From Candidatus Roizmanbacteria bacterium RIFCSPHIGHO2_02_FULL_38_11 (lineage in GTDB: Bacteria > Patescibacteriota > Microgenomatia > UBA1406 > GWC2-37-13), in NCBI GenBank assembly GCA_001788015.1, contig MFZO01000047.1:68266-100725 (forward strand): a stretch of DNA of 32,460 nucleotides, read 5' to 3'. Shown piece after piece: positions 17,915 to 32,460 of the stretch. The notes under the pieces were generated by a model. It saw nothing but the letters and a program-made list of their open reading frames with translations, did no database searches and was not told the DNA's origin. The position numbers were made by a program, and so were the translations under genes. The first letter of the stretch is position 1; every line of letters begins with the position of its first letter.

Positions 17915-18916
17915 TTAATTCCCTGGTGTTGGAGGATTACGATCAACCCAATCCGAGGCGGCGTCGGTGTCAAAACCGGGAGTTTGTCTTTCGGTTGAGT
18001 GACCCAAGGCTGCTTTTGGATTGACTGCGGGTGGGGTAAATCCTGAAATGTCATTCCCCCAGCTCATCCGATCGACCTCTATCCCACTGCTGTTTTTTAA
18101 TACTACATGGTCGCCATCAACATCCAATCCATTGCCAAATTTTTTTACAACTTTAATTTTTAGGGAATTTTTAGGCTCGTTCCAAAGTTTCCAAACCGTC
18201 CCGTCATCCGACAAAAGCGCAAAACCGCCAGCTTTTATTTTTTTGTCTGAACGAATTACGGTCGTTCTGGAATTATCAGTAATAGTCCAGTTTTTTAGCC
18301 GAATATCCTGCCGGGTAGGATTATAAAGCTCAATCCACTGATACTTAAATCTTGTTTTTTTCTTTGTATCTATATAATACACTTCATTGAAGACAACATT
18401 GTTGCCAGTTATTGTGCCAAAGCTAAGATCGGCAGTGACGGATTTTGCTTGATACAAATTATTTGCAGAAGTAGGGAATTCAACCAAAAAGTTGTAGGTT
18501 TTATGGTCGCCGGCATTAATTGTATTTAAGAGAATTCCGTCTTGGGATAAACTATCGCTAAAAAAATCAGTCATTGATTTTGGCCCATATAAAGCAGTTG
18601 ATCCATCCTTGATGGTTACATTCAACACGGTTTCAATCTTTGGATCTAATCCTATTCCACCGGTTCGAGTGCCTCTGGCTGCGATAATCCGACTTACACT
18701 CCCGTTGTTGGTTACATCAATTGGTTTTGTTTCACTATCTCCCGGTTTCATGTTGGTAAGATTGAAAATTGGACCGACTGTATGAAAATCAACAATTAGA
18801 TCGCCAAAGGCTTGAACGGTCGGACTTTTAAGCAATTTCTCGAAACCGCCGTTAAAATAAAAAACCGCACCGACAAGCAAAAGCAAAATTATTATCCGCA
18901 AAATTCGTTTTTTCAT
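17915..18916 (-). CDS. Secreted lamin-tail-domain (LTD) protein with TasA-like N-terminal region
   Basis: N-terminal TM; VVFNEVYYID...YQWIELYNPTRQDIRLKNWTITDNS...FALLSDDGTVW, LTD signature. Confidence 0.83.
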   Translation of the reverse strand: MKKRILRIIILLLLVGAVFYFNGGFEKLLKSPTVQAFGDLIVDFHTVGPIFNLTNMKPGDSETKPIDVTNNGSVSRIIAARGTRTGGIGLDPKIETVLNVTIKDGSTALYGPKSMTDFFSDSLSQDGILLNTINAGDHKTYNFLVEFPTSANNLYQAKSVTADLSFGTITGNNVVFNEVYYIDTKKKTRFKYQWIELYNPTRQDIRLKNWTITDNSRTTVIRSDKKIKAGGFALLSDDGTVWKLWNEPKNSLKIKVVKKFGNGLDVDGDHVVLKNSSGIEVDRMSWGNDISGFTPPAVNPKAALGHSTERQTPGFDTDAASDWVDRNPPTPGN

Positions 18917-19692
18917 GGTATTTCCGCAGAACTGGTGCTATATTGTGGTTGAGACAAAGTTCGTAATATAAAATCTGTTGAATTATTATCAGAGTCGTAT
19001 CCATTGCCTTTAAATTCATCGACTCCTCCTGAGTTCATTGAACTTACTGTTGATGTTGAATTTGCTTTTCGTTCCGCGCTTTGATTTGCCGATGGATTAG
19101 GAGAGAATTCTGTTTCTTCCTTTAAAGATAAAGAGGAAGAATCCCAACTAAGAGCGTCAACAATTGCTCCAGTTGCTACGTTTTTAAGAGCTATGCTGTT
19201 ATTTACAGCCAAAGTGTCAGCTGACGATACATCAGCAAAAATTATATCTGCAAAATTGTTATTTGAAGATTTATGTCCCCATAGGAAGTAGCCATGAGCA
19301 TTTATATTATGAGAAGATGTGAAATTATATATTGTTGTATCATTCCCAGAACTTGCGGTTCTTTTAATCAGTCTTAATCCGTTAAGTGGTATCGAAGAAG
19401 ACGTTGGGTTATAAAGTTCTATGAAATCATTTTTGTTTGCGTCTCCTGTACCTCCATCAATTTGTACTTCACTTATTACAACATGATTTACTAGTTGAGG
19501 TGTTGGGGTTGGAGTTTGAGTGACTGTGGGCGTCGGTGTATTAGTCGGCGTTGCGGTTGGAAAAGCGTTTGAAGCGGTTAAAGAATTGTTGTCATTTGAT
19601 GCGGCGCTTGTAAAAAGACCATAAGTATATTTGTAGGTCGCAAAACCTACTATTAAAAAAAATAAAATAAGAATTATCTTTTTGATATTCAT
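18913..19692 (-). CDS. Secreted lamin-tail-domain protein with SipW-type signal peptide and Pro/Thr linker
   Basis: YTYGLFTSAASNDNNSLTASNAF signal region; TPTNTPTPTVTQTPTPTP; HVVISEVQIDGGTGDANKNDFIELYNPTSSSIPLNGLRL. Confidence 0.85.
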   Translation of the reverse strand: MNIKKIILILFFLIVGFATYKYTYGLFTSAASNDNNSLTASNAFPTATPTNTPTPTVTQTPTPTPQLVNHVVISEVQIDGGTGDANKNDFIELYNPTSSSIPLNGLRLIKRTASSGNDTTIYNFTSSHNINAHGYFLWGHKSSNNNFADIIFADVSSADTLAVNNSIALKNVATGAIVDALSWDSSSLSLKEETEFSPNPSANQSAERKANSTSTVSSMNSGGVDEFKGNGYDSDNNSTDFILRTLSQPQYSTSSAEIP

Positions 19693-20231
19693 ATCATCTG
19701 CATTTGTTGTAATAACTTTTTCTCAGTTTCTTTTTTCATTTCGTTATTGATACTGATAAGTTCAAAAATGATAAAAATACCAGCTGGAAAAACTATTAAA
19801 GCTAGATAACCAGGTACAGTATTGATAAAAAAGACTATCCGACCAGCATAAGGTATCGCAAAAAATACATTTCCCAACACATTACTTTGCGGGACAAGAT
19901 CCGAATCACTTATATTATTAGCGTCACCCATGGTTTTGTAATACAAAAGACTTCTCTTATCCTCCACGTCGATGATTCTGTGAGTAACGGTTCTGTCTTC
20001 TTTTTTGAAGGCGATGACATCGTTTAGCTTATAAACATCAAGAGGATGAGTAAAGACGATTGTGCTAACCGGTATGGTCGGCTCCATGCTTCCGGTTAAG
20101 ACGACAAAAGATCTAATTCCTCCCAACAAGTCTGTCTTGGAAGTAATCAGAATAAAAACAAGAAACGGTAAGATACCAAAAACTACTCCCTTTAGCACCT
20201 CTTCCGTTATTAGGTATATTGTTTTTCCCAT
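19689..20231 (-). CDS. sipW: Signal peptidase I, SipW/archaeal-ER type
   Basis: VVLTGSMEPTIPVSTIVFTHP...LNDVIAFKKEDRTVTHRIIDV...YKTMGDANNISDSDLV; Ser/His-type motifs. Confidence 0.9.
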   Translation of the reverse strand: MGKTIYLITEEVLKGVVFGILPFLVFILITSKTDLLGGIRSFVVLTGSMEPTIPVSTIVFTHPLDVYKLNDVIAFKKEDRTVTHRIIDVEDKRSLLYYKTMGDANNISDSDLVPQSNVLGNVFFAIPYAGRIVFFINTVPGYLALIVFPAGIFIIFELISINNEMKKETEKKLLQQMQMI

Positions 20232-20258
20232 GTTTTTTCACCCTTACTACGTTATCCT

Positions 20259-20302
20259 CACCCTCAGGGTGGGCAAGTCAAAAAACGCTCTCCCTGAGGG
20301 TG
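20259..20302. promoter_or_regulatory. Intercistronic hairpin between tasA-like and sipW-like genes (possible attenuator or mRNA stabiliser)
   Basis: 11-bp perfect stem CACCCTCAGGG/CCCTGAGGGTG with 22-nt loop. Confidence 0.65.
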
Positions 20303-20340
20303 TAATGATAAGAAGCCAAAAACTAAAAACAGCCCAAAAA

Positions 20341-20901
20341 TTACTGATCGGCCTGGAAATTCAGATTAAAAGTCACACCTGCGCTTTGATAAGAGTCATC
20401 ATTTGTGTCGTCAAAAGTTATCCTGGCAATTATTTGGTGTGATCCTCCGAGTGCAGCGAGACTAAATCCTAGAGAAATATTAGACCAAGACGGATCTGTA
20501 AGATGAGCGCTACCACGTAAAATATCTCCTCCATCTATAATTCCATTTCCATTTTGGTCGTCATAGATATCTAAAGTTAACAAGTCTCCGAGATTAACCG
20601 GTGGAATGGGATTAGGCGTAACATTTATACTGGTTAACAAAACATTGGAAGCGGCAATCGATCCGGTATTAGACAATATGATTACTTGGTCTATAACATC
20701 TGTTGGCTTCGCATTTGTAACCGAGAACACAGGTGATGATGTACTATCTTCGTTACCGTTAATTCGTAACTCCATAGTGCCTGCTCCAAATGTGTTTCCG
20801 TTGTTGCTAGCCTGTGAGGAAAACAGAGCAAAAGTAACTCCTCCGACCAATCCTACTACTGCAAATATAGAAATTATTCCCATCAATATCTGTCTATTCA
20901 T
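20341..20901 (-). CDS. TasA/CalY-family (camelysin-like) SipW-dependent secreted protein
   Basis: IFAVVGLVGGVTFALFSSQASNNGNTFGAGTMELRING...LSNTGSIAASNVLL; strong SD AAAGGGGGTGAGA upstream. Confidence 0.85.
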   Translation of the reverse strand: MNRQILMGIISIFAVVGLVGGVTFALFSSQASNNGNTFGAGTMELRINGNEDSTSSPVFSVTNAKPTDVIDQVIILSNTGSIAASNVLLTSINVTPNPIPPVNLGDLLTLDIYDDQNGNGIIDGGDILRGSAHLTDPSWSNISLGFSLAALGGSHQIIARITFDDTNDDSYQSAGVTFNLNFQADQ

Positions 20902-20918
20902 CTTTTCTCACCCCCTTT

Positions 20919-20959
20919 AGATTTTGTTTCCGAATTTATAATGAGGAAATACAAAATCT
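20919..20959 (-). promoter_or_regulatory. 5'-leader hairpin upstream of the tasA-like gene
   Basis: AGATTTTGTTTCC...GGAAATACAAAATCT inverted repeat. Confidence 0.5.
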
Positions 20960-20962
20960 TAA

Positions 20963-21035
20963 GTCCACCCAAGAACGCTCCTCAAGACGCCGAGCGAATA
21001 GCGAAGAGTTTAGTCTTGAGGTAAGTTCAGGTGGA
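20963..21035 (-). promoter_or_regulatory. Second long hairpin in the tasA-like leader region
   Basis: GTCCACC...CCTCAAGAC.....GTCTTGAGG...GGTGGAC nested arms. Confidence 0.5.
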
Positions 21036-21053
21036 CACACATTATTTAATTCT

Positions 21054-21078
21054 GGATTCCCGCTTTCGCGGGAATGAC
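21054..21078. repeat. Palindromic repeat unit (GATTCCCGCTTTCGCGGGAATGACA)
   Basis: Near-identical to positions 1-24. Confidence 0.75.
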
Positions 21079-21111
21079 AAAAACAAAATGTGACCGAAAT
21101 CACACTATAAA

Positions 21112-21143
21112 AAAAGCCAGCTCTAACTGTGAGCTGGTTTTTG
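21112..21143. terminator. Bidirectional rho-independent terminator-like hairpin
   Basis: A-tract, CCAGCTC-TAACTGT-GAGCTGG stem, T-tract. Confidence 0.75.
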
Positions 21144-21387
21144 TATCAACCCGAAAGGGTTTTAGCCTAATTTGAGGCTCCATTTTATCAACTAAACTTT
21201 CTACTTAATTCGAGTCTAGACCCCTAAAAAAATTGTGTCAAGATGTCATAGTAGATAGAACAATATGTAAACGCCTCATATTTTTAAAATAATATAAAAC
21301 CTATAAAAAAACGAAATATTTTTTAATTTGTTTATAATTTTCTAGTTTAGATGATAATGAAAAATACTATATAAAAAAACTTAAAAT

Positions 21388-21416
21388 TTGACTTGAAATT
21401 ATTTATATGATATAAT
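21388..21416 (+). promoter_or_regulatory. sigma70-type promoter TTGACT-17nt-TATAAT
   Basis: Optimal spacing, 27 nt upstream of the ATG at 21444. Confidence 0.75.
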
Positions 21417-21443
21417 CCCCTAGTAAATTGTTATAAGAACTTT

Positions 21444-21989
21444 ATGTCGAGAAAAACTTTTTACCTTCAAATCTTTATTTTCTTCTTTCTTTTTTTAACG
21501 ATTTTAGTATCTTCTGTGTTTGGAATAGTCAATCCGCCTGATTTTCCCTCGTGTGTTAATCCTCAAGGTTCTGTTGTGACAAGCTATAGTACGGGAACGC
21601 ATGGAGTGCCCGGGGTTGCAACTGCGTATCAAGGGTCTGATACGGTTTATAAAGTATCAAATGAAAATCTCTCCCAATGTTTGTGTACGGAAAATAACGA
21701 GGGTATTCAAACCAACTGGTGGAAAGTTTCGTCTCTAACTTCCCAAGAGATCGAGAGTTTAAAAACCCAAGGATGGATTTTTATCCCCGATGGTTCAGCT
21801 TGGGGATTAGATTCCTCTGCTTATCTGGCTAAAAACTCCAATTATTCCTGCCGGGGCAGAGGCGGAATTGGAGGAGGGGAAGTTTTAGGATTGGCTGCAA
21901 CAGGAAATATAAAGACAATCTATGCGTTGTTTTCATTAGGTTTTCTTTCTTTAACGATTGGATATCTACTTAGACAAAAACAGACTTAA
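21444..21989 (+). CDS. Secreted protein with C-terminal sortase-type sorting signal
   Basis: N-terminal signal; C-terminal GGGEVLGLAATGN-IKTIYALFSLGFLSLTIGYLL-RQKQT (LAATG-like motif, TM, basic tail). Confidence 0.75.
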   Translation: MSRKTFYLQIFIFFFLFLTILVSSVFGIVNPPDFPSCVNPQGSVVTSYSTGTHGVPGVATAYQGSDTVYKVSNENLSQCLCTENNEGIQTNWWKVSSLTSQEIESLKTQGWIFIPDGSAWGLDSSAYLAKNSNYSCRGRGGIGGGEVLGLAATGNIKTIYALFSLGFLSLTIGYLLRQKQT

Positions 21990-22043
21990 ATGTCTAATTT
22001 CTAATTACTAATTTCTAATAAAATCTCAATTTTCAAATTACAA

Positions 22044-22592
22044 ATGATGTCAGCAAAATTATTCACTTATTTCGGCGCGGTATGCTTAATTTCAGCACTC
22101 TTTCTTCTTTGGCAGAGGAGTAACCCGAAAAGGTTAATGTTTTCTTCATTTTTTCCAAGCAAAGTAGAAACTTTGTCGCTCAAAGACAGCCAGCCAACCC
22201 GCTTGATAATAAGGAATTCAAACATCGATCTGCCAATCATACCGGCAAAAGTTAAAGGTCAAAACTGGGAGACAACCACGCAGGGTGTTTCCTGGCTGAT
22301 TAATTCCTCACTGCCTGGAGAAGAAGGCAATAGCGTTATCTATGGGCATAATTGGGAAAATCTTTTAGGAAATCTAATCTCTGTCAAGCCGGGTTATCAA
22401 ATAGAAATAGCTTATAAGGACGGGTCAAAGAAAATCTTCACAGTCGACAGCACGGCAATAGTTTCACCCAAGAACATTTCAGTTTTAAAGCAATCAAAAG
22501 ACAAGAAGATCACCCTTTATACCTGTATCGGCCTATTTGATGAAAAAAGATTTGTGGTTGTGGCTAAAATCGATAAAAAACTTGCCAATTAA
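22044..22592 (+). CDS. Sortase family protein
   Basis: SLPGEEGNSVIYGHNWENLLGNL and KITLYTCIGLFDEKRFVVVAKI: catalytic His, Cys and Arg motifs. Confidence 0.92.
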   Translation: MMSAKLFTYFGAVCLISALFLLWQRSNPKRLMFSSFFPSKVETLSLKDSQPTRLIIRNSNIDLPIIPAKVKGQNWETTTQGVSWLINSSLPGEEGNSVIYGHNWENLLGNLISVKPGYQIEIAYKDGSKKIFTVDSTAIVSPKNISVLKQSKDKKITLYTCIGLFDEKRFVVVAKIDKKLAN

Positions 22593-22981: not shown

Positions 22982-25900
22982 ATGAAAAATAATCAAAACT
23001 TATCAAATACAGGCAAAAAAGCGCTTTCTATCGTTATTCCTGTAGTAAACGAACAAAGGAACATAAAACCACTCATCGAACGCATCATTTCTGCGTGCTC
23101 AAAAAGAGGTTTGAGTTTCGAAATTATAGTTATCGACGATCACTCAACAGATAACACATATCAAGTCGTTAAAGCTTTAACAAAGCTTTATCCTTTTATC
23201 AGTCTCTATAGTAAAAAAGGAAAAAAAGGCAAAGCTTTTTCGCTACTCGAGGGATTCGGCTATGCAAAATACGATCTTCTTACCATGATTGACGCAGACC
23301 TCCAGTACCCACCCGAAGCAATCCCGGAGATGGCAGATAAAATCAGCGACTCGGTCGGAGTTGTGGTCGCAGAGAGGAAAATCCACAAGTCGTCCCTTCT
23401 GCGCAAAATTTTAAGCCATGGATTTTCACTTTTTTTTGCAAGATTCCTACATGGTTTAGATCACGATGTTCAGTCCGGACTAAAGGTCTTCAAGAAGGAA
23501 ATCATCGAAAGAATAACGCTAGCCCCGGGGCCGTGGTCTTTTGATCTTGAGTTTTTGATAAAAGCAAAACACGCCGGCTATAACATCGAAAACCATCAGA
23601 TAACATTTGAAAAACGCTATCAGGAAAAACCCAAAATATCTCTTTTGCCGGCAATTTTGGAGATCGGAGCATCAGCGTTAAAACTTGCGTTTTTATCTCA
23701 TGAAGTTATTCCTTTTCATCCAAAAAGGGAAAAGGCAGACGGCAAGGGTTTTCATTTTAAGGGTGTTGAGTTCGTCCATCACAGCGATGTTCCTTTTCTT
23801 GAGAGCGCCTTTAAGACGCTGATTTTTAATCATAAAATAATTTTATTGGATATTGTTTTGGCCATTGTGATAGGTTTTATTGCTGATTGGCGTATCACCG
23901 CAATTATCCTTGTTGGCCTCATCACCGTTATCTACTTTATCGATCTTCTCTTGAATCTGTTTCTGATCATGAGAGGCTTTACAAAAAAGCCGGAAATCCA
24001 TGTCTCAAGACAAGAAGTTGACGAATTGAGCGGGAACAAACTTCCGAAATACACAATTCTTTGTCCTCTCTATAACGAATGGGAAGTCTTACCCCAATTC
24101 ATTACCGCAATGTCTCGGATCGATTACCCCAAAGATAAGCTGCAGGTTTTACTCCTTTTGGAAGAGGACGATAAGGAAACGATAAAACATGTGCAAAGCT
24201 ATCGGCTGCCAAGCTATTTTGAAGTTGCCATAGTCCCGGATTCGCTGCCTAAGACTAAGCCTAAGGCTTTAAACTATGGATTGCGCAAAGCGGAAGGTAA
24301 ATATGTAGTCATCTATGACGCAGAGGATGTTCCGGATCCAAAACAGCTCAAAAAAGTCATTGTTGCTTTTGAAAAAAGTGACTCAAAAACAGTCTGCATT
24401 CAGGCAAAGCTTAATTTTTACAACCCTCATCACAATATCTTAACCAGGATTTTTACAGCCGAGTACTCACTCTGGTTTGATTTGGTCTTGACCGGTCTGC
24501 AATCAATTTTTGCACCGATTCCGCTGGGTGGGACCTCAAATCACTTCAAACTGATAGATCTCAAAAGTCTCAACGGCTGGGATTCTTTTAACGTCACGGA
24601 AGACTGCGATCTCGGCATGCGCTTGGTAAAGCGCGGTTATCAGACAGCGCTTATTAACTCGGTAACCCTCGAGGAGGCCAATAGCGATCTTAATAACTGG
24701 TTTCTACAGCGGACTCGCTGGATCAAAGGATATATACAGACTTACTTGGTCCACATGAGAAATCCACGAGAATTTGTCAAAAATAATTCAAATTCGCAGC
24801 TTTTTATATTTCAGCTGATAGTCGGAGGTAAGGTTTTATCGATGTTTATCAATCCCTTGATGTGGATAACTACTATTTCCTACTTTGCTTTCCGACCGAT
24901 CGCAGGTCCCTTTATACAACAATTCTTTCCCGCGCCGGTTCTCTATATGGGGGTATTTTCCCTGGTTTTCGGCAACTTTCTTTACATGTACTATTACATG
25001 ATCGGCTGTGTCAAGCGAGGACACTACGATCTCGTGAAGTATGTATTCTTGGTTCCTTTTTACTGGCTTTGCATGAGCATTGCCGCTTGGAAAGCTCTGA
25101 TTCAGCTCATTCAGCGGCCTCACTTTTGGCCAAAGACTATCCACGGATTCCATCTGGACAGCGATAAAGTCATTAAGCAGGCGACAGAAGCCATCGGGAA
25201 AAAATTGGTTGATACGCGATTTGTCACCTATCCGGTGGACTTCAACCCTGCCTATGCAAAGGTAGCCAAATCAGTCGTGCCCGAAACCTGGTCAAAAAAC
25301 ACTTTATCGTCGGGGACTCTGCTTCTGGGAGCGATGATGGTCGGAAACTTTTTAAATTTTCTTTTTAATGCCTATCTTGGGAGATCGATATCATTTGAGG
25401 ATTTCGGGCTTACAACTCTAATCAATACCTTCTGGTATCTTTTGAGCGTTTTTATATCATCGCTAGGGACAACCGTAAATCATAGGATAGCCTATATTTC
25501 GGCGAAGTCGGGAAAAGAAGCCGCAGTAGGCTTTCTCTTGATGATGGCCCACAAGGCGACAAAGATATTCCTGGTGATTTCCATAGCCTGGTTGGCCCTT
25601 TCACCTCTTTTGGCAAATTTTTTCAGGCTGGAGTCAATATTGCCGTTGGTTTCGTTTACGCCGGTCATTTTGCTTAGCGCAATTTCAAGTTTAGGGACCG
25701 GCTTTCTCCACGGAAATTTTTATTTCTTGCTGATCGGCGCCGCCCTCATACTGGGAGCTTTGACGAAATTTGCAGGCGCATACTTATTTGTGTTTTTTAA
25801 GCTTAATTCGTATGCCTATTTAGCCATTCCAATCTCGTCAGCCGTCTCGTTCGTAGTAGTAACCGCTTTCGTACTTCTGAAAATAAGAAAGATTAAGTCG

Positions 25901-27733
25901 ATCCCGAAGATGCATTTTGGTTTTCCCAAAAAGTTTTTCTTCGCTTCGGTGGTAACCGGATTTTCAACCAGCGCTTTTTTGACCTTGGATATCGTCTTGA
26001 CGAAACATTTTTTATCGAGCAAACTGGCAGGAGAATATGCCTTCTTGTCACTGGTCGGAAAAATGATCTATTACTTCGGATCGATTCTTAATGTTTTCAT
26101 GACGCCGTTTGTCAGCCGCGATCTTGGGGCGAATCGAGACCCGAACAAAACTTTCTATAGGATTTTAGCAGGAACAATAATCTTTACGAGCATGATGTAT
26201 TTTGCTATCGGGATCTTTGGAAACATTACTATTCCATTGCTTTTTGGCGAAAAAGCCTTTCCGATATTAAAGTATTTACCAGTCTACTCGCTGGCGATAA
26301 GTTTTTACGTCATCAGCAACAGCATTATTTCCTATCACCTGTTACGACACCACTATTCCTTTCCGATTACCGGGCTTATCCTTTCCTTGGTCATGTCAAC
26401 GGGGATAATACTTTTTCATAACAATATCGGAGAGATCAGCAATGTCATCTTGGCTACGAGCATCATAAGTTTGATTGTCTTTATTTTGCTTCATCTTTTG
26501 CAGAGAGAGGGAAGATTTTTTCTCAAAAATCTTATCGACCTTTTCGGATTATTTTTGCCATTGCCAAAAGCCTCTCCGGTGGCGTCTGCCGGGAAAAGAA
26601 TTCTTGTCTTTAACTGGCGCGATACCAAGCATAAATTTGCCGGCGGAGCAGAGGTATATATCCATGAACTCGCCAAACGCTGGGTTAAAGCCGGCCACAG
26701 CGTCACCCTTTTTTGCGGAAACGACGGGCATTGTTTAAGAAATGAGGTTATTGACGGAGTCCAGGTCATTCGAAGAGGCGGATTTTATTTTGTCTATGTC
26801 TGGGCTTTCCTTTACTACCTTCTTAGATTTAGAGGTCAATATGATCTCATCATCGACAGCGAAAACGGCATTCCGTTTTTTACCCCCTTCTATTCCGGCG
26901 AAAAGAAATATTTACTCATCCACCACGTACATCAGGATGTCTTCAGAAAGAGCTTGGTTCCACCCCTTTCCTGGCTGGCGACTTTTTTAGAGTTATATAT
27001 AATGCCGTCTGTTTATAAAAATATTCAGACAATTACGGTGTCTCCTTCTTCCAAAAAAGAAATTCTGGATAAGGAGCTGACAAGCGTCGAACCGATTGTA
27101 ATCTACAATGGAGTCGACCTTTCGTCGTATAAACCTGCGCAAAAAAGCCACATGCCTCTTGTTTTATATCTTGGAAGGCTCAAATATTATAAGAGTCTGC
27201 ATATTTTTCTTCACGCGGCCAAAAAAATACTTGATAAGATGCCGCACGTGAAATTTGTCATCGCGGGAGACGGAGAGGAAAAAGATAATTTAATCAGGCT
27301 GGCAAAAAAATTAAATATATTTGACAAGGTCAACTTTGCAGGAAAAGTTTCGGAAGAAGAAAAAATACGTCTCTATCAGAAAGCCTGGGTTTTTGTCAAT
27401 CCGTCATATATGGAGGGCTGGGGAATCACGACAATTGAGGCAAATGCCTGTGGTACCCCCGTGGTTGCATCAGACGTTCCCGGCCTCCGTGACTCTGTCA
27501 ATAATCCTCACAACGGATTCCTCGTTCCCTACGGTAGTATTAATGAGTTTACTGCTTCCATTATCAAACTGCTCAAAGACGACTCGCTCCGGGCAAAAAT
27601 GTCAATAGAAGCTATGTATTGGGCAAAACAGTTCGAGTGGAAAAAAAGCGTCGAAGCAAGCCTGAAATTATTCGAAAAAGAGCAAGAGGCTCTCCCAACC
27701 TATAATAAATTATTAAACAAAAAATATGCTTAA
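22982..27733 (+). CDS. Four-module fusion: GT2 (polyprenol-phosphate glycosyltransferase-like), GT2 (processive/cellulose-synthase-like), MOP-type polysaccharide flippase, GT4
   Basis: GT2-A: SIVIPVVNEQRNI, MIDADLQYPPE. GT2-B: YTILCPLYNEWEVL, YDAEDVPDP, TEDCDLG, QRTRW plus TMs. Flippase-like polytopic region ~aa 770-1185. GT4: GGAEVYIHELAKRW, YNGVDLSSY, YLGRLKYYK, EGWGITTIEANACGTPVVAS. Confidence 0.9.
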   Translation: MKNNQNLSNTGKKALSIVIPVVNEQRNIKPLIERIISACSKRGLSFEIIVIDDHSTDNTYQVVKALTKLYPFISLYSKKGKKGKAFSLLEGFGYAKYDLLTMIDADLQYPPEAIPEMADKISDSVGVVVAERKIHKSSLLRKILSHGFSLFFARFLHGLDHDVQSGLKVFKKEIIERITLAPGPWSFDLEFLIKAKHAGYNIENHQITFEKRYQEKPKISLLPAILEIGASALKLAFLSHEVIPFHPKREKADGKGFHFKGVEFVHHSDVPFLESAFKTLIFNHKIILLDIVLAIVIGFIADWRITAIILVGLITVIYFIDLLLNLFLIMRGFTKKPEIHVSRQEVDELSGNKLPKYTILCPLYNEWEVLPQFITAMSRIDYPKDKLQVLLLLEEDDKETIKHVQSYRLPSYFEVAIVPDSLPKTKPKALNYGLRKAEGKYVVIYDAEDVPDPKQLKKVIVAFEKSDSKTVCIQAKLNFYNPHHNILTRIFTAEYSLWFDLVLTGLQSIFAPIPLGGTSNHFKLIDLKSLNGWDSFNVTEDCDLGMRLVKRGYQTALINSVTLEEANSDLNNWFLQRTRWIKGYIQTYLVHMRNPREFVKNNSNSQLFIFQLIVGGKVLSMFINPLMWITTISYFAFRPIAGPFIQQFFPAPVLYMGVFSLVFGNFLYMYYYMIGCVKRGHYDLVKYVFLVPFYWLCMSIAAWKALIQLIQRPHFWPKTIHGFHLDSDKVIKQATEAIGKKLVDTRFVTYPVDFNPAYAKVAKSVVPETWSKNTLSSGTLLLGAMMVGNFLNFLFNAYLGRSISFEDFGLTTLINTFWYLLSVFISSLGTTVNHRIAYISAKSGKEAAVGFLLMMAHKATKIFLVISIAWLALSPLLANFFRLESILPLVSFTPVILLSAISSLGTGFLHGNFYFLLIGAALILGALTKFAGAYLFVFFKLNSYAYLAIPISSAVSFVVVTAFVLLKIRKIKSIPKMHFGFPKKFFFASVVTGFSTSAFLTLDIVLTKHFLSSKLAGEYAFLSLVGKMIYYFGSILNVFMTPFVSRDLGANRDPNKTFYRILAGTIIFTSMMYFAIGIFGNITIPLLFGEKAFPILKYLPVYSLAISFYVISNSIISYHLLRHHYSFPITGLILSLVMSTGIILFHNNIGEISNVILATSIISLIVFILLHLLQREGRFFLKNLIDLFGLFLPLPKASPVASAGKRILVFNWRDTKHKFAGGAEVYIHELAKRWVKAGHSVTLFCGNDGHCLRNEVIDGVQVIRRGGFYFVYVWAFLYYLLRFRGQYDLIIDSENGIPFFTPFYSGEKKYLLIHHVHQDVFRKSLVPPLSWLATFLELYIMPSVYKNIQTITVSPSSKKEILDKELTSVEPIVIYNGVDLSSYKPAQKSHMPLVLYLGRLKYYKSLHIFLHAAKKILDKMPHVKFVIAGDGEEKDNLIRLAKKLNIFDKVNFAGKVSEEEKIRLYQKAWVFVNPSYMEGWGITTIEANACGTPVVASDVPGLRDSVNNPHNGFLVPYGSINEFTASIIKLLKDDSLRAKMSIEAMYWAKQFEWKKSVEASLKLFEKEQEALPTYNKLLNKKYA

Positions 27734-28649
27734 AGTTGCCGTAACAGTTGGAATACCAGCCTATAATGAAGAAAAAAATATAAAAAATCTTCTTTTGTCA
27801 ATCCTTAGCCAAGAAGAAAAAGGTTACTTTATTAAAAAAATTATCGTTGTGTCCGACGGGAGTACCGACGAAACGGTCAAAAGAGCTAAAGAAATCAAAG
27901 ATGAGCGGCTGGAAGTAATTTCCAAAAAGAAAAGAGTCGGCAAGTCAACCCATCTAAACTATCTATTTAGGAATCTCGATACGGACATACTTGTTCTTTT
28001 TGACGCCGATGTAACCCTGGCAGACAGATTTACCTTACAATATCTGATTCAACCCATGCTAGAAGACGAAAATGTTGGTTTGGTAGGAGGATGCCCGGTT
28101 CAATTCAGAGCCAAAAACTTTTTAGAAAAGGCTATAAATGTTGGCTACGAGACCTATAAAGAAATGCGGCTCAAGATTAAGCAAGGAAATAATCTGTATT
28201 GCTGCATCGGTCAGATATTAGCTTTATCAAAAACGTTTGCCAAGCAGACAGTTGTACCTAAAGACGTTATGTGTAATGACACTTTCCTCTACCTGGCATG
28301 CCTGGCTAATAAATTTAAATTTATGCATATTGATGAGGCCCGTGTCTGGTATCGAGCTCCAAAGAAACTAGACGACCATATAAAACAGAGCGAAAGGTTT
28401 GCTATTGCAAGAGCAAGGCTCACAGAACTATTTGGGAAGTTGGCAAAAGAGGAGTACAAAATACCCAAAAAACTTTACTATATTTATTTGATTAAGGGAT
28501 TTCTTAGAGCACCTCTTCATTCTTCGTTGCTTTTTATATTAAATTCTTATTCCGGTCTTCTTGCAGCTAAAGAAAGTTACAAATTTAATGCCGCCTGGCC
28601 CATTGCCTGGAGTACAAAGCTGGGGATTAAACCGTCATATGAAAACTAA
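27726..28649 (+). CDS. GT2 glycosyltransferase
   Basis: VTVGIPAYNEEKNIKNLLLSIL, VVSDGSTDETV, LFDADVTL. Confidence 0.92.
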   Translation: MLKVAVTVGIPAYNEEKNIKNLLLSILSQEEKGYFIKKIIVVSDGSTDETVKRAKEIKDERLEVISKKKRVGKSTHLNYLFRNLDTDILVLFDADVTLADRFTLQYLIQPMLEDENVGLVGGCPVQFRAKNFLEKAINVGYETYKEMRLKIKQGNNLYCCIGQILALSKTFAKQTVVPKDVMCNDTFLYLACLANKFKFMHIDEARVWYRAPKKLDDHIKQSERFAIARARLTELFGKLAKEEYKIPKKLYYIYLIKGFLRAPLHSSLLFILNSYSGLLAAKESYKFNAAWPIAWSTKLGIKPSYEN

Positions 28650-30666
28650 ACCCACAGTAACAGTCGGAATTCCCGCTTATAACGAGGAAAAAAATATAGG
28701 CAATCTTTTGCTTGAGCTTCTCAATCAAAAGCAATCTATATTTGAGTTAGAAAAAGTTATTGTGGTTTCCGATGGCAGTACAGATGGGACCGTAGCCAAA
28801 GTAAAAATTATCAAAAATCCCCAAGTTATGGTGATCGATAATTTGGAAAGAAAAGGCAAACCATACAGGCTGAATCAATTATTCGAGAATTCAAAATCAG
28901 ATACACTCGTCATTTTGGATGCTGACACCCTCCTCCAGGACAAACTTTTCTTGGAAAAGCTGATGAAGCCTGTTATAAAGCAAAAGGCTGATCTGACTTC
29001 GGCAGGGATTGAAGAACTAGAACCTAAAACATTTATCCAAAAAATGCTTAAGGCAAGTATGGCTTTTAAAAAATATATTTTTGAGAGGTACAGAGAGGGG
29101 AATAATCTCTATACCTGTCACGGAAGGGCTCGGGCATTTTCCAGAAGGCTATACAGCTCAATTCAGTTTACCGATACGATAGCCGACGATGCTTTCTCAT
29201 ACCTTTTTTGCAAAGCTAAAAAATATAAATATTATTTTGCCAAAGAGGCGAAAGTATATTATCAATTACCAGAGAATCTGGTTGATCATGAGAAACAGAG
29301 CATCCGCTTTTTTCAGTCGAAGAAAGACTTAGTAAGAACATTTGGTGAAGAGTTAGTTCAATCAGAATACCGCCTTCCATTTATACTTAGCATACAGTCT
29401 TTTGCGAAGACACTTGTTTCTTATCCCTTTATTGTGCCTTATTTTACTACGGTCTCATGGCTAAAAATTAAATCGAGTTTATCGACACAGCGTACCTCCA
29501 AATGGGACGTAGCTGAATCATCCAAAAACTTGAAAAAAGAAAAAATTTCTATCTGCCTTTTTGGGACCTACGACAGAAACTACACTTCTAACAAACTGAT
29601 CCTGCAAGGCTTGAAGGAAAACAATATTGACGTGGTCGAGATCAATGCTCATACGCCAGTTACCAGGCTTGACAGCCAGAAGGAGATGACTTGGATAAAA
29701 CTAATAGTCCGAATCGCCAGGAAATACAGGATTATTACGGAGATTGTCAAAAATTACAAAGCATTTAAAAAAGTCGACGCCATCTATGTAGGTTATCCCG
29801 GCCACTTCGACGTTTTGATCGCCTATCCGATCGCCAAGATTTTTGGCAAAAAGCTGGTCTTCAATCCGCTTCTTATCTTTTATACCGGATTTAGCGAAGA
29901 GCAGGGAATTTTAAAAAAGACAACGCTCATGGGAAAAGTTTTAAAAGGCGGGGAAACATTGATCTATAACCTTTGCGACATGGTATTCGCCGATACTCCC
30001 TTCCAAGAGAAATATCTGATCCGTGATTACAAAGTAGCAAAGGAAAAGCTTCGCGTTCTGCCAATCGGCGCCGATGACAGATATTACAAATACACTCCCT
30101 ACACGAATCTTGGCAAAAAAATAAATGTCGTCTACTATGGCTTGTACAGCCCGGTTCACGGCGTAGAACACATAATCGAAGCGGCTAGAATATTAAGGAA
30201 CAACAAAGACGTCAAATTTACGTTTGTTGGAATAGGGCAGACATTTAAGGCCAATTACGAAAGAGCAAAAAAATTGAAGTTGCCAAATGTCGAGTTTTTT
30301 CACGATGTGCCGATGGAGAAACATCCGGCAATCATCCAGAAAGCAGATATCTTCTTAGGTTTCCTGCAGAAGCATCCGACAGTTGACCGAGTCATACCAA
30401 ATAAGATCTATCAAGGACAAGCGTTGGGAAAAGTTGTTTTAACCGCAGATGCACCGGTTACCCGCAGCATATTCACCCATAAACAAAACATGTATTTTTG
30501 CCAACCTTCAAATCCCAAAGATCTGGTTAAGGCCATATTGGATCTCCAATCAAATCCCAAACTGAGAAAAGAAATAGCAGACAACGGTTACGCTTTGTAT
30601 AAAAAAGAGTTCACTCCCAAAGCGGTCGGTAAAAAACTCATAGAATTTGTTCAAGAAATTTTATGA
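28639..30666 (+). CDS. GT2-GT4 bifunctional glycosyltransferase fusion
   Basis: Start at the ATG at 28639 (MKTKPTVTVGIPAYNEEKNI); GT2 domain followed by GT4-like KISICLFGTYDRNYTSNKLI...VVYYGLYSPVHGVEHIIEAARIL...KADIFLGFL. Confidence 0.88.
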   Translation: MKTKPTVTVGIPAYNEEKNIGNLLLELLNQKQSIFELEKVIVVSDGSTDGTVAKVKIIKNPQVMVIDNLERKGKPYRLNQLFENSKSDTLVILDADTLLQDKLFLEKLMKPVIKQKADLTSAGIEELEPKTFIQKMLKASMAFKKYIFERYREGNNLYTCHGRARAFSRRLYSSIQFTDTIADDAFSYLFCKAKKYKYYFAKEAKVYYQLPENLVDHEKQSIRFFQSKKDLVRTFGEELVQSEYRLPFILSIQSFAKTLVSYPFIVPYFTTVSWLKIKSSLSTQRTSKWDVAESSKNLKKEKISICLFGTYDRNYTSNKLILQGLKENNIDVVEINAHTPVTRLDSQKEMTWIKLIVRIARKYRIITEIVKNYKAFKKVDAIYVGYPGHFDVLIAYPIAKIFGKKLVFNPLLIFYTGFSEEQGILKKTTLMGKVLKGGETLIYNLCDMVFADTPFQEKYLIRDYKVAKEKLRVLPIGADDRYYKYTPYTNLGKKINVVYYGLYSPVHGVEHIIEAARILRNNKDVKFTFVGIGQTFKANYERAKKLKLPNVEFFHDVPMEKHPAIIQKADIFLGFLQKHPTVDRVIPNKIYQGQALGKVVLTADAPVTRSIFTHKQNMYFCQPSNPKDLVKAILDLQSNPKLRKEIADNGYALYKKEFTPKAVGKKLIEFVQEIL

Positions 30667-31580
30667 ACAAGAAAAAATTTACTGTCACAATCGGTATTCC
30701 AGTCTATAATGAGGAGAACAATATAAAATACCTACTTGAATCCCTTTTAAAACAAAGCGAAAAGAACGTTTTTATCGAGAAAATCATCGTTATTTCCGAT
30801 GCAAGCACGGATAAAACAAATGAAATAATCTCTTCTATAAATAATCCTAGTGTCCAAATAATTGTAAATAAAATTAGAGAGGGTCAAATTAATATTCAGA
30901 ATAAAATTTTTTCATTAGTAAATTCAGATGTAGTAGTGCTTTTTGAGGCTGATACGTGTCCAAAGGACGACATGTTTTTAGAAGAACTTCTAAAACCTTT
31001 AATGTTTAATAAGCAGCTTGAGTTTCTTCAAGGTAATCCACAACCGTTGCCGCCGATGAATTTTTTTGAAAAGATATTATACGCTCAAGATGCTTCATTC
31101 TATAAATTCGTTAAAGATCTGGGACACCCGGAAGAAATATTCATTTCGGGTGGTGCAGGAAGAGCATTCAGCAAAAAAGTATACAAAAATCTAGTCTGGC
31201 CAAAGAATGTTCCGGAGGATAGTTTTGCCTTCTTTTGGCTTAAAAAAAATAATATAAAAATGGCTTTTAGACAAAATGCAATTTGTTATTATAGATTACC
31301 CCAGTCTCTTGAAGACTATTTAATAAAAAAGCAAAAAGTAATTGCGGGTCAGATTACATTAAATAAAAATTTCTCAAACCTGCTTAACAATCAGCAGAAT
31401 TCTTTTTCAAAATTCCTCTTACTTAAGGTTGCTTTATATTTTTTATTTACACACCCCATTCTATTTTTTAGCTATTTGTTGATTAAGTTAATCGAAAAAA
31501 TGAGGATTAAAAAAGAAAAATTCTCTGATTTATGGAAATATCCATATTCAACAAAAGCATTATTTCAAATTAAAACGTAA
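30663..31580 (+). CDS. GT2 glycosyltransferase
   Basis: VTIGIPVYNEENNIKYLLESLL, VISDASTDKTNE, LFEADTCPKD. Confidence 0.9.
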   Translation: MNKKKFTVTIGIPVYNEENNIKYLLESLLKQSEKNVFIEKIIVISDASTDKTNEIISSINNPSVQIIVNKIREGQINIQNKIFSLVNSDVVVLFEADTCPKDDMFLEELLKPLMFNKQLEFLQGNPQPLPPMNFFEKILYAQDASFYKFVKDLGHPEEIFISGGAGRAFSKKVYKNLVWPKNVPEDSFAFFWLKKNNIKMAFRQNAICYYRLPQSLEDYLIKKQKVIAGQITLNKNFSNLLNNQQNSFSKFLLLKVALYFLFTHPILFFSYLLIKLIEKMRIKKEKFSDLWKYPYSTKALFQIKT

Positions 31581-31949: not shown

Positions 31950-32100
31950 TAGTTACAAGAATAACTATCGGTTAAATTTTTGTTTAACAAAGCAATAAAA
32001 GTATCCTATAAGTAAATTCATATTCTAACTCTCGTCTTATCAATATAGCTCGCATTTGATGAGTATTTTTGGTATAATCTATACCTATAGTAAATATTAT

Positions 32101-32460
32101 ATGATAAAAACCACTCGTAACTTTACCGTCACCATAGGTATTCCCGCATATAATGAAGAACAAGGTATTAAAAAGATGCTTAAGTCAGTGTGTAAACAAA
32201 AAGAAAAAGGATTTAAGATTAAAGAAATTTTAGTAATCTCTGACGGAAGCACCGATCGCACAGTTGAAATCGTCAAAAGTATAAGAGATCCAAGGATAGT
32301 TCTGATTGACAATAAAAAAAGATTGGGACAATCTACACGCATTCAAGAGTTATTGCACAGATTTAATAGCGATTACCTTGTGCTTATGGATGCTGACTTG
32401 ATAATAAAAGACGAAGATGGAATTCAACGCTTGATTAAAAAAATCTCGTCAGATAAAAAC
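32101..32460 (+). CDS. GT2 glycosyltransferase, truncated by the window end
   Basis: Translates as MIKTTRNFTVTIGIPAYNEEQGIKKMLKSVCKQKEKGFKIKEILVISDGSTDRTVEIVKS...LVLMDADLIIKDED, open at 32460; absent from the ORF track. Confidence 0.9.
   Translation, partial: MIKTTRNFTVTIGIPAYNEEQGIKKMLKSVCKQKEKGFKIKEILVISDGSTDRTVEIVKSIRDPRIVLIDNKKRLGQSTRIQELLHRFNSDYLVLMDADLIIKDEDGIQRLIKKISSDKN

Follow-up and report, generated by a model that had tools for sequence, protein, structure and literature searches.

A four-domain glycosyltransferase–flippase fusion protein in Patescibacteria and its possible role in glycan assembly and export

Can the enzymes that build a lipid-linked glycan and the flippase that moves it across the membrane operate as a single polypeptide? 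The question is raised by a gene (P0001) from an uncultured member of the Patescibacteria with a genome of 1.24 Mb (98% complete), whose named relatives are Roizmanbacteria, Levybacteria and Gottesmanbacteria. The gene lies in a stretch of 32,460 nucleotides, the whole of which is referred to here as “the window”. A preliminary description of this DNA proposed that one continuous ORF encodes two GT2 glycosyltransferases, a MOP/Wzx-like flippase region and a GT4, and that a lipid-linked intermediate is channelled through them from priming to translocation and later transfer.

Domains of the fusion protein

The reading frame is open throughout, with no internal stops, and the order and identities of the four domains proposed in the preliminary description are correct (Table 1). 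The protein is confirmed as a fusion of a DPM/ArnC-type GT2, a membrane GT2 related to BcsA and PgaC, a 12-helix MOP flippase and a GT4. Pfam assigns GT2 (aa 16–178, 6e-43), Glyco_tranf_2_3 (aa 355–583, 2e-26) and, in the C-terminal part, Glyco_transf_4 (aa 1221–1381) and Glycos_transf_1 (aa 1389–1544, 6e-45) in the protein itself; the flippase region is matched only through relatives. Assembly artefact, a concern raised beforehand, is ruled out because full-length relatives with 44–73% identity are encoded in 15 other genomes, which a joining of contigs would not produce. Catalytic motifs are retained in 14 of 14 four-domain forms checked in the alignment. For each domain, pN is much lower than pS in the most closely related pairs, a comparison that replaces dN/dS since synonymous sites are saturated.

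Table 1. Positions of the fusion gene, its domains and the glycosyltransferase genes that follow it in the window (aa, residues of the fusion protein)
Feature	Position	Strand	Basis or remark
Four-domain fusion gene P0001	22982..27733	+	1583 aa; 15 full-length relatives
DPM/ArnC/GtrB-like GT2 (Und-P-sugar synthase type), aa 14-240	23021..23701	+	PDB matches, motif conservation
Membrane GT2 (BcsA/PgaC-like), aa 281-735	23822..25186	+	N-terminal TM hairpin, motifs, W716xKTxHG
GT2-flippase linker, aa 738-773	25193..25300	+	Low-confidence, length-variable; pLDDT <50, alignment
12-helix MOP-superfamily (Wzx-like) flippase, aa 772-1189	25295..26548	+	AlphaFold2, Foldseek, Pfam matches of relatives
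GT4 (GT-B) glycosyltransferase, aa 1205-1565	26594..27676	+	Pfam, structural relatives, EX7E at aa 1478
GT2	27726..28649	+	Pfam; 8-bp overlap with the stop of the fusion, same operon
GT2-GT4 fusion, 701 aa	28561..30666	+	Pfam; same operon
GT2	30663..31580	+	Pfam; same operon
GT2	32056..32460	+	Clipped by the window end; continues in L075

The first GT2 belongs with the DPM/ArnC/GtrB class. Its nearest PDB matches are archaeal DPMS (4e-25) and ArnC (3e-21), and it has the GT-A fold, the DxD and SGxK motifs and a GxSK-type motif, the last being degenerate (EKPK) in the window protein, degenerate also in the nearest relative, and kept as GxSK in most relatives. The DxD motif is DAD at aa 104 in the window protein, and D[AG]D is common to every aligned four-domain fusion. 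A role for this domain in “priming”, as originally suggested, is doubtful: the domain resembles Und-P-sugar synthases (ArnC, GtrB, DPMS), not phosphoglycosyltransferases. The latter are encoded elsewhere in the genome.

The second GT2 matches BcsA, PgaC and HAS and carries the motifs DAED446, TEDCD539 and QRTRW576, together with an invariant W-x-K-T-x-H-G (W716) that we take to resemble the gating-loop region of BcsA. BcsA-like motifs can also occur in non-processive GT2s, so the processive type named in the preliminary description is putative. Both a hydropathy scan and the modelled helices place about two TM helices before the catalytic domain and two or three after it. We rejected an identity as the cellulose synthase BcsA, as the fusion protein has no Pfam match to PilZ and a search of the genome found no BcsB. 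A relative of the membrane GT2 on a Geobacillus plasmid (L115:5422-7314) is flanked by BcsB and a PMT_2 gene, and relatives adjoin BcsB or GH8. The BcsB-adjoining relative outside the phylum hints that the domain may synthesize a polymer instead of transferring a single sugar.

The flippase region (aa ~765–1192) has no Pfam match in the window protein. Among 28 aligned relatives, however, 14 match PF01943 (Polysacc_synt; best 8e-8) and four match PF13440 (best 3e-11). Searching the PDB with a sequence profile of the region (A1) gave only spurious matches to orexin receptors, so structure was used instead. An AlphaFold2 model of the region (pLDDT 89.6, pTM 0.86; pTM for aa 1–1200 was 0.59) retrieved MATE, MurJ and WzxE with Foldseek, with a best E of 2e-7 and a TM score to the query of ~0.7. 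Twelve helices and a MATE/MurJ/Wzx fold thus place the domain in the MOP superfamily, bearing out the MOP/Wzx-like region first proposed. The domain is not MurJ, which is encoded by a separate gene in the genome and whose Pfam family matches neither the domain nor its relatives. The 12 helices and the operon context are consistent with a putative Wzx function. Among near relatives, the flippase is the fastest-changing domain, with 57% identity vs ~80% for the others. The C-terminal domain is a GT4 by its GT-B family match and EX7E motif, and it resembles PimA, PglA and TarM.

Distribution and genomic context

Conservation was assessed in 185 relatives and 380 genomes drawn evenly from the phylum, together with local ORF analysis. 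In the sample, 16 Patescibacteria genomes encode the four-domain form, and the order of domains is constant across two large clades and other families of the phylum, at 44–73% identity. A strong match of any kind was found in only 20 of the 380 evenly drawn genomes; hence, the system is scattered through the phylum, not universal. At L119:4621-10338, a relative of 1905 aa has a fifth, C-terminal APH-like kinase domain; in the window genome, this kinase has a gene of its own (L075:3865-4809).

The fusion is not essential: individual domains can be encoded separately, be lost or be supplied in trans. Nine proteins have three domains and lack the DPM domain (one of them start-clipped by a contig end), three fusions lack the flippase, and there are several split forms. 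In a two-gene form, found at L044, L046, L093 and L051, GT2-GT2 and flippase-GT4 are encoded at a single locus. The flippase-less protein at L049 (genome G001) nests with high support among four-domain proteins in the GT2 tree and retains a segment resembling the last helix of the flippase, indicating that domain loss has occurred; a flippase orthologue lies two genes downstream. In genomes G104 and G137, a flippase-less fusion is accompanied only by a distant MOP gene elsewhere in the genome. On the GT2 tree, in which many branches are weak, the fused-flippase state requires ~10 changes. In two relatives, L017 and L025, the flippase domain is broken into overlapping frames, either by MAG error or by a real frameshift.

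The fusion gene is the first gene of a glycan operon (Table 1). In relatives, the operon includes PMT_2 GT-C, PIG-L deacetylase, GNAT, an APH-like kinase and a secreted GH-like protein. Elsewhere, the window genome encodes four other Polysacc_synt flippases. Just upstream of the fusion, positions 17915–22592 of the window encode a Camelysin-family protein (−) and a sortase-domain protein (+), with two lamin-tail-domain proteins at 17915–19692. The same genome has a second, unrelated GT2-MOP flippase fusion of 658 aa (L156:1078-3051, equivalent to G000:C14:4869-6842; Polysacc_synt 2e-14), which is near full-length in 13 relatives of the family; a 12-residue N gap lies away from the junction, within the flippase.

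Possible mechanism and alternatives

We consider it probable that the fusion protein is a glycan assembly and export module on one polypeptide, with a polyprenyl-linked glycan built at the cytoplasmic face and then flipped in a Wzx-like manner. The DPM-like GT2 would make a polyprenyl-phosphate sugar. At the cytoplasmic face, the membrane GT2, the C-terminal GT4 and other glycosyltransferases of the operon would lengthen a polyprenyl-linked saccharide, which the fused MOP domain would flip to the outer face. There, PMT_2-type GT-C enzymes and the secreted glycosidase-like protein seen in the operon of relatives may finish or attach the glycan. The fused flippase need not be the sole exporter, given the four others in the genome. 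The BcsB-adjoining relative of the membrane GT2 and the distant MOP genes of G104 and G137 also speak against this reading. In 12-helix MOP proteins, both termini are inside. With both ends of the MOP domain cytosolic, all three glycosyltransferases would share the cytosol and the GT4 should act before flipping; on this family topology, the earlier proposal of transfer by the GT4 after translocation is probably wrong. The proposed functional link between synthesis and flipping fares better: in one type of operon, the domains occur fused, split within a locus or in trans.

A stronger version of this link is a channelling machine, in which cytosolic glycosyl transfer is mechanically coupled to MOP flipping such that only the finished lipid-linked glycan is exported. 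We hold this to be rather unlikely, and about as likely as a fusion that merely keeps the partners together. A more serious contender, with a chance a little below even, is that the genes fused in a compact genome and that the domains are not mechanistically coupled: four activities of one pathway would then have no advantage from sharing a chain. The overlapping genes of the operon, the split and lost forms and the ~10 changes in flippase fusion favor this explanation, as do the 658-aa GT2-flippase fusion and the GT2-GT4 fusion in the same genome; the constant domain order across clades and families argues against it. It is compatible with the assembly and export module in all but coupling.

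A different cargo is also conceivable. The MOP domain might flip an Und-P-monosaccharide that the DPM-like domain makes and thereby provide donors for outer PMT_2-type GT-C enzymes, with the other glycosyltransferases merely co-fused. The class of the first GT2, the PMT_2-type GT-C enzymes in the operon of relatives, the 22 PMT_2 matches in the window genome and the presence there of just one GtrA-type protein, encoded elsewhere, are in keeping with this. Nevertheless, we judge it improbable: the DPM domain is absent from nine proteins that retain flippase and GT4, a nearby flippase is lacking for many DPM-GT2 proteins, and, to our knowledge, none of the known Und-P-sugar flippases is a MOP protein. 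Moreover, the presence of the flippase agrees with that of the GT4 at 44 of 48 loci and with that of the DPM domain at 28 of 48, although these loci offer few independent contrasts, and a tree-based test of the flippase-GT4 association, with only three independent pairs, was underpowered. Because the flippase follows the GT4 more closely than it follows the DPM domain, these patterns favor a lipid-linked oligosaccharide over an Und-P-monosaccharide as the putative cargo. Equally improbable is a rival in which the membrane GT2, as a BcsA-like processive synthase, exports its own polymer and the MOP domain serves a separate lipid-linked decoration. The BcsA/PgaC/HAS matches of this GT2 and the BcsB or GH8 neighbors of its relatives speak for this reading; the lack of BcsB in the window genome and a TM helix count below that of BcsA speak against it.

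Related systems and significance

The nearest precedents for a synthase and a flippase on one chain are AglD and MprF, neither of which has a MOP domain or several glycosyltransferases. Members of the AglD family of Haloferax volcanii combine a GT2 with a UPF0104 flippase-like membrane domain in one polypeptide; in contrast to the fusion described here, they have only two domains, their flippase is of the UPF0104/MprF type rather than MOP, and they act in archaeal N-glycosylation (PMC5898192). An AglD-type fusion was rejected for our protein, whose flippase is MOP by structure and which has no UPF0104 Pfam match. MprF likewise joins a synthase and a flippase for one lipid, but that lipid is lysyl-phosphatidylglycerol, there is no glycosyltransferase, and the flippase fold differs.

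Individual domains have closer counterparts. Wzx/WzxE and MurJ share the MOP fold and flip polyprenyl-linked glycans but are stand-alone proteins. Pyrococcus furiosus DPMS, ArnC and GtrB, the nearest relatives of the N-terminal GT2 with solved structures, lack a second GT2, a MOP domain and a GT4. BcsA, PgaC and TIGR03111 GT2s share motifs and fold with the second GT2 but have no fused flippase, and BcsA additionally has BcsB as a partner and a larger number of TM helices. The open-access literature that we searched contained no description of the four-domain architecture.

The existence of the fusion protein suggests that synthesis of a surface sugar chain may be physically coupled to its export. 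In Wzx pathways, the parts are separate proteins, which makes direct hand-off of a product to the flippase hard to test. Hand-off becomes directly testable with a conserved natural fusion, which also fixes stoichiometry for structural work, and with its natural variants that are split or lack the flippase or the DPM domain.
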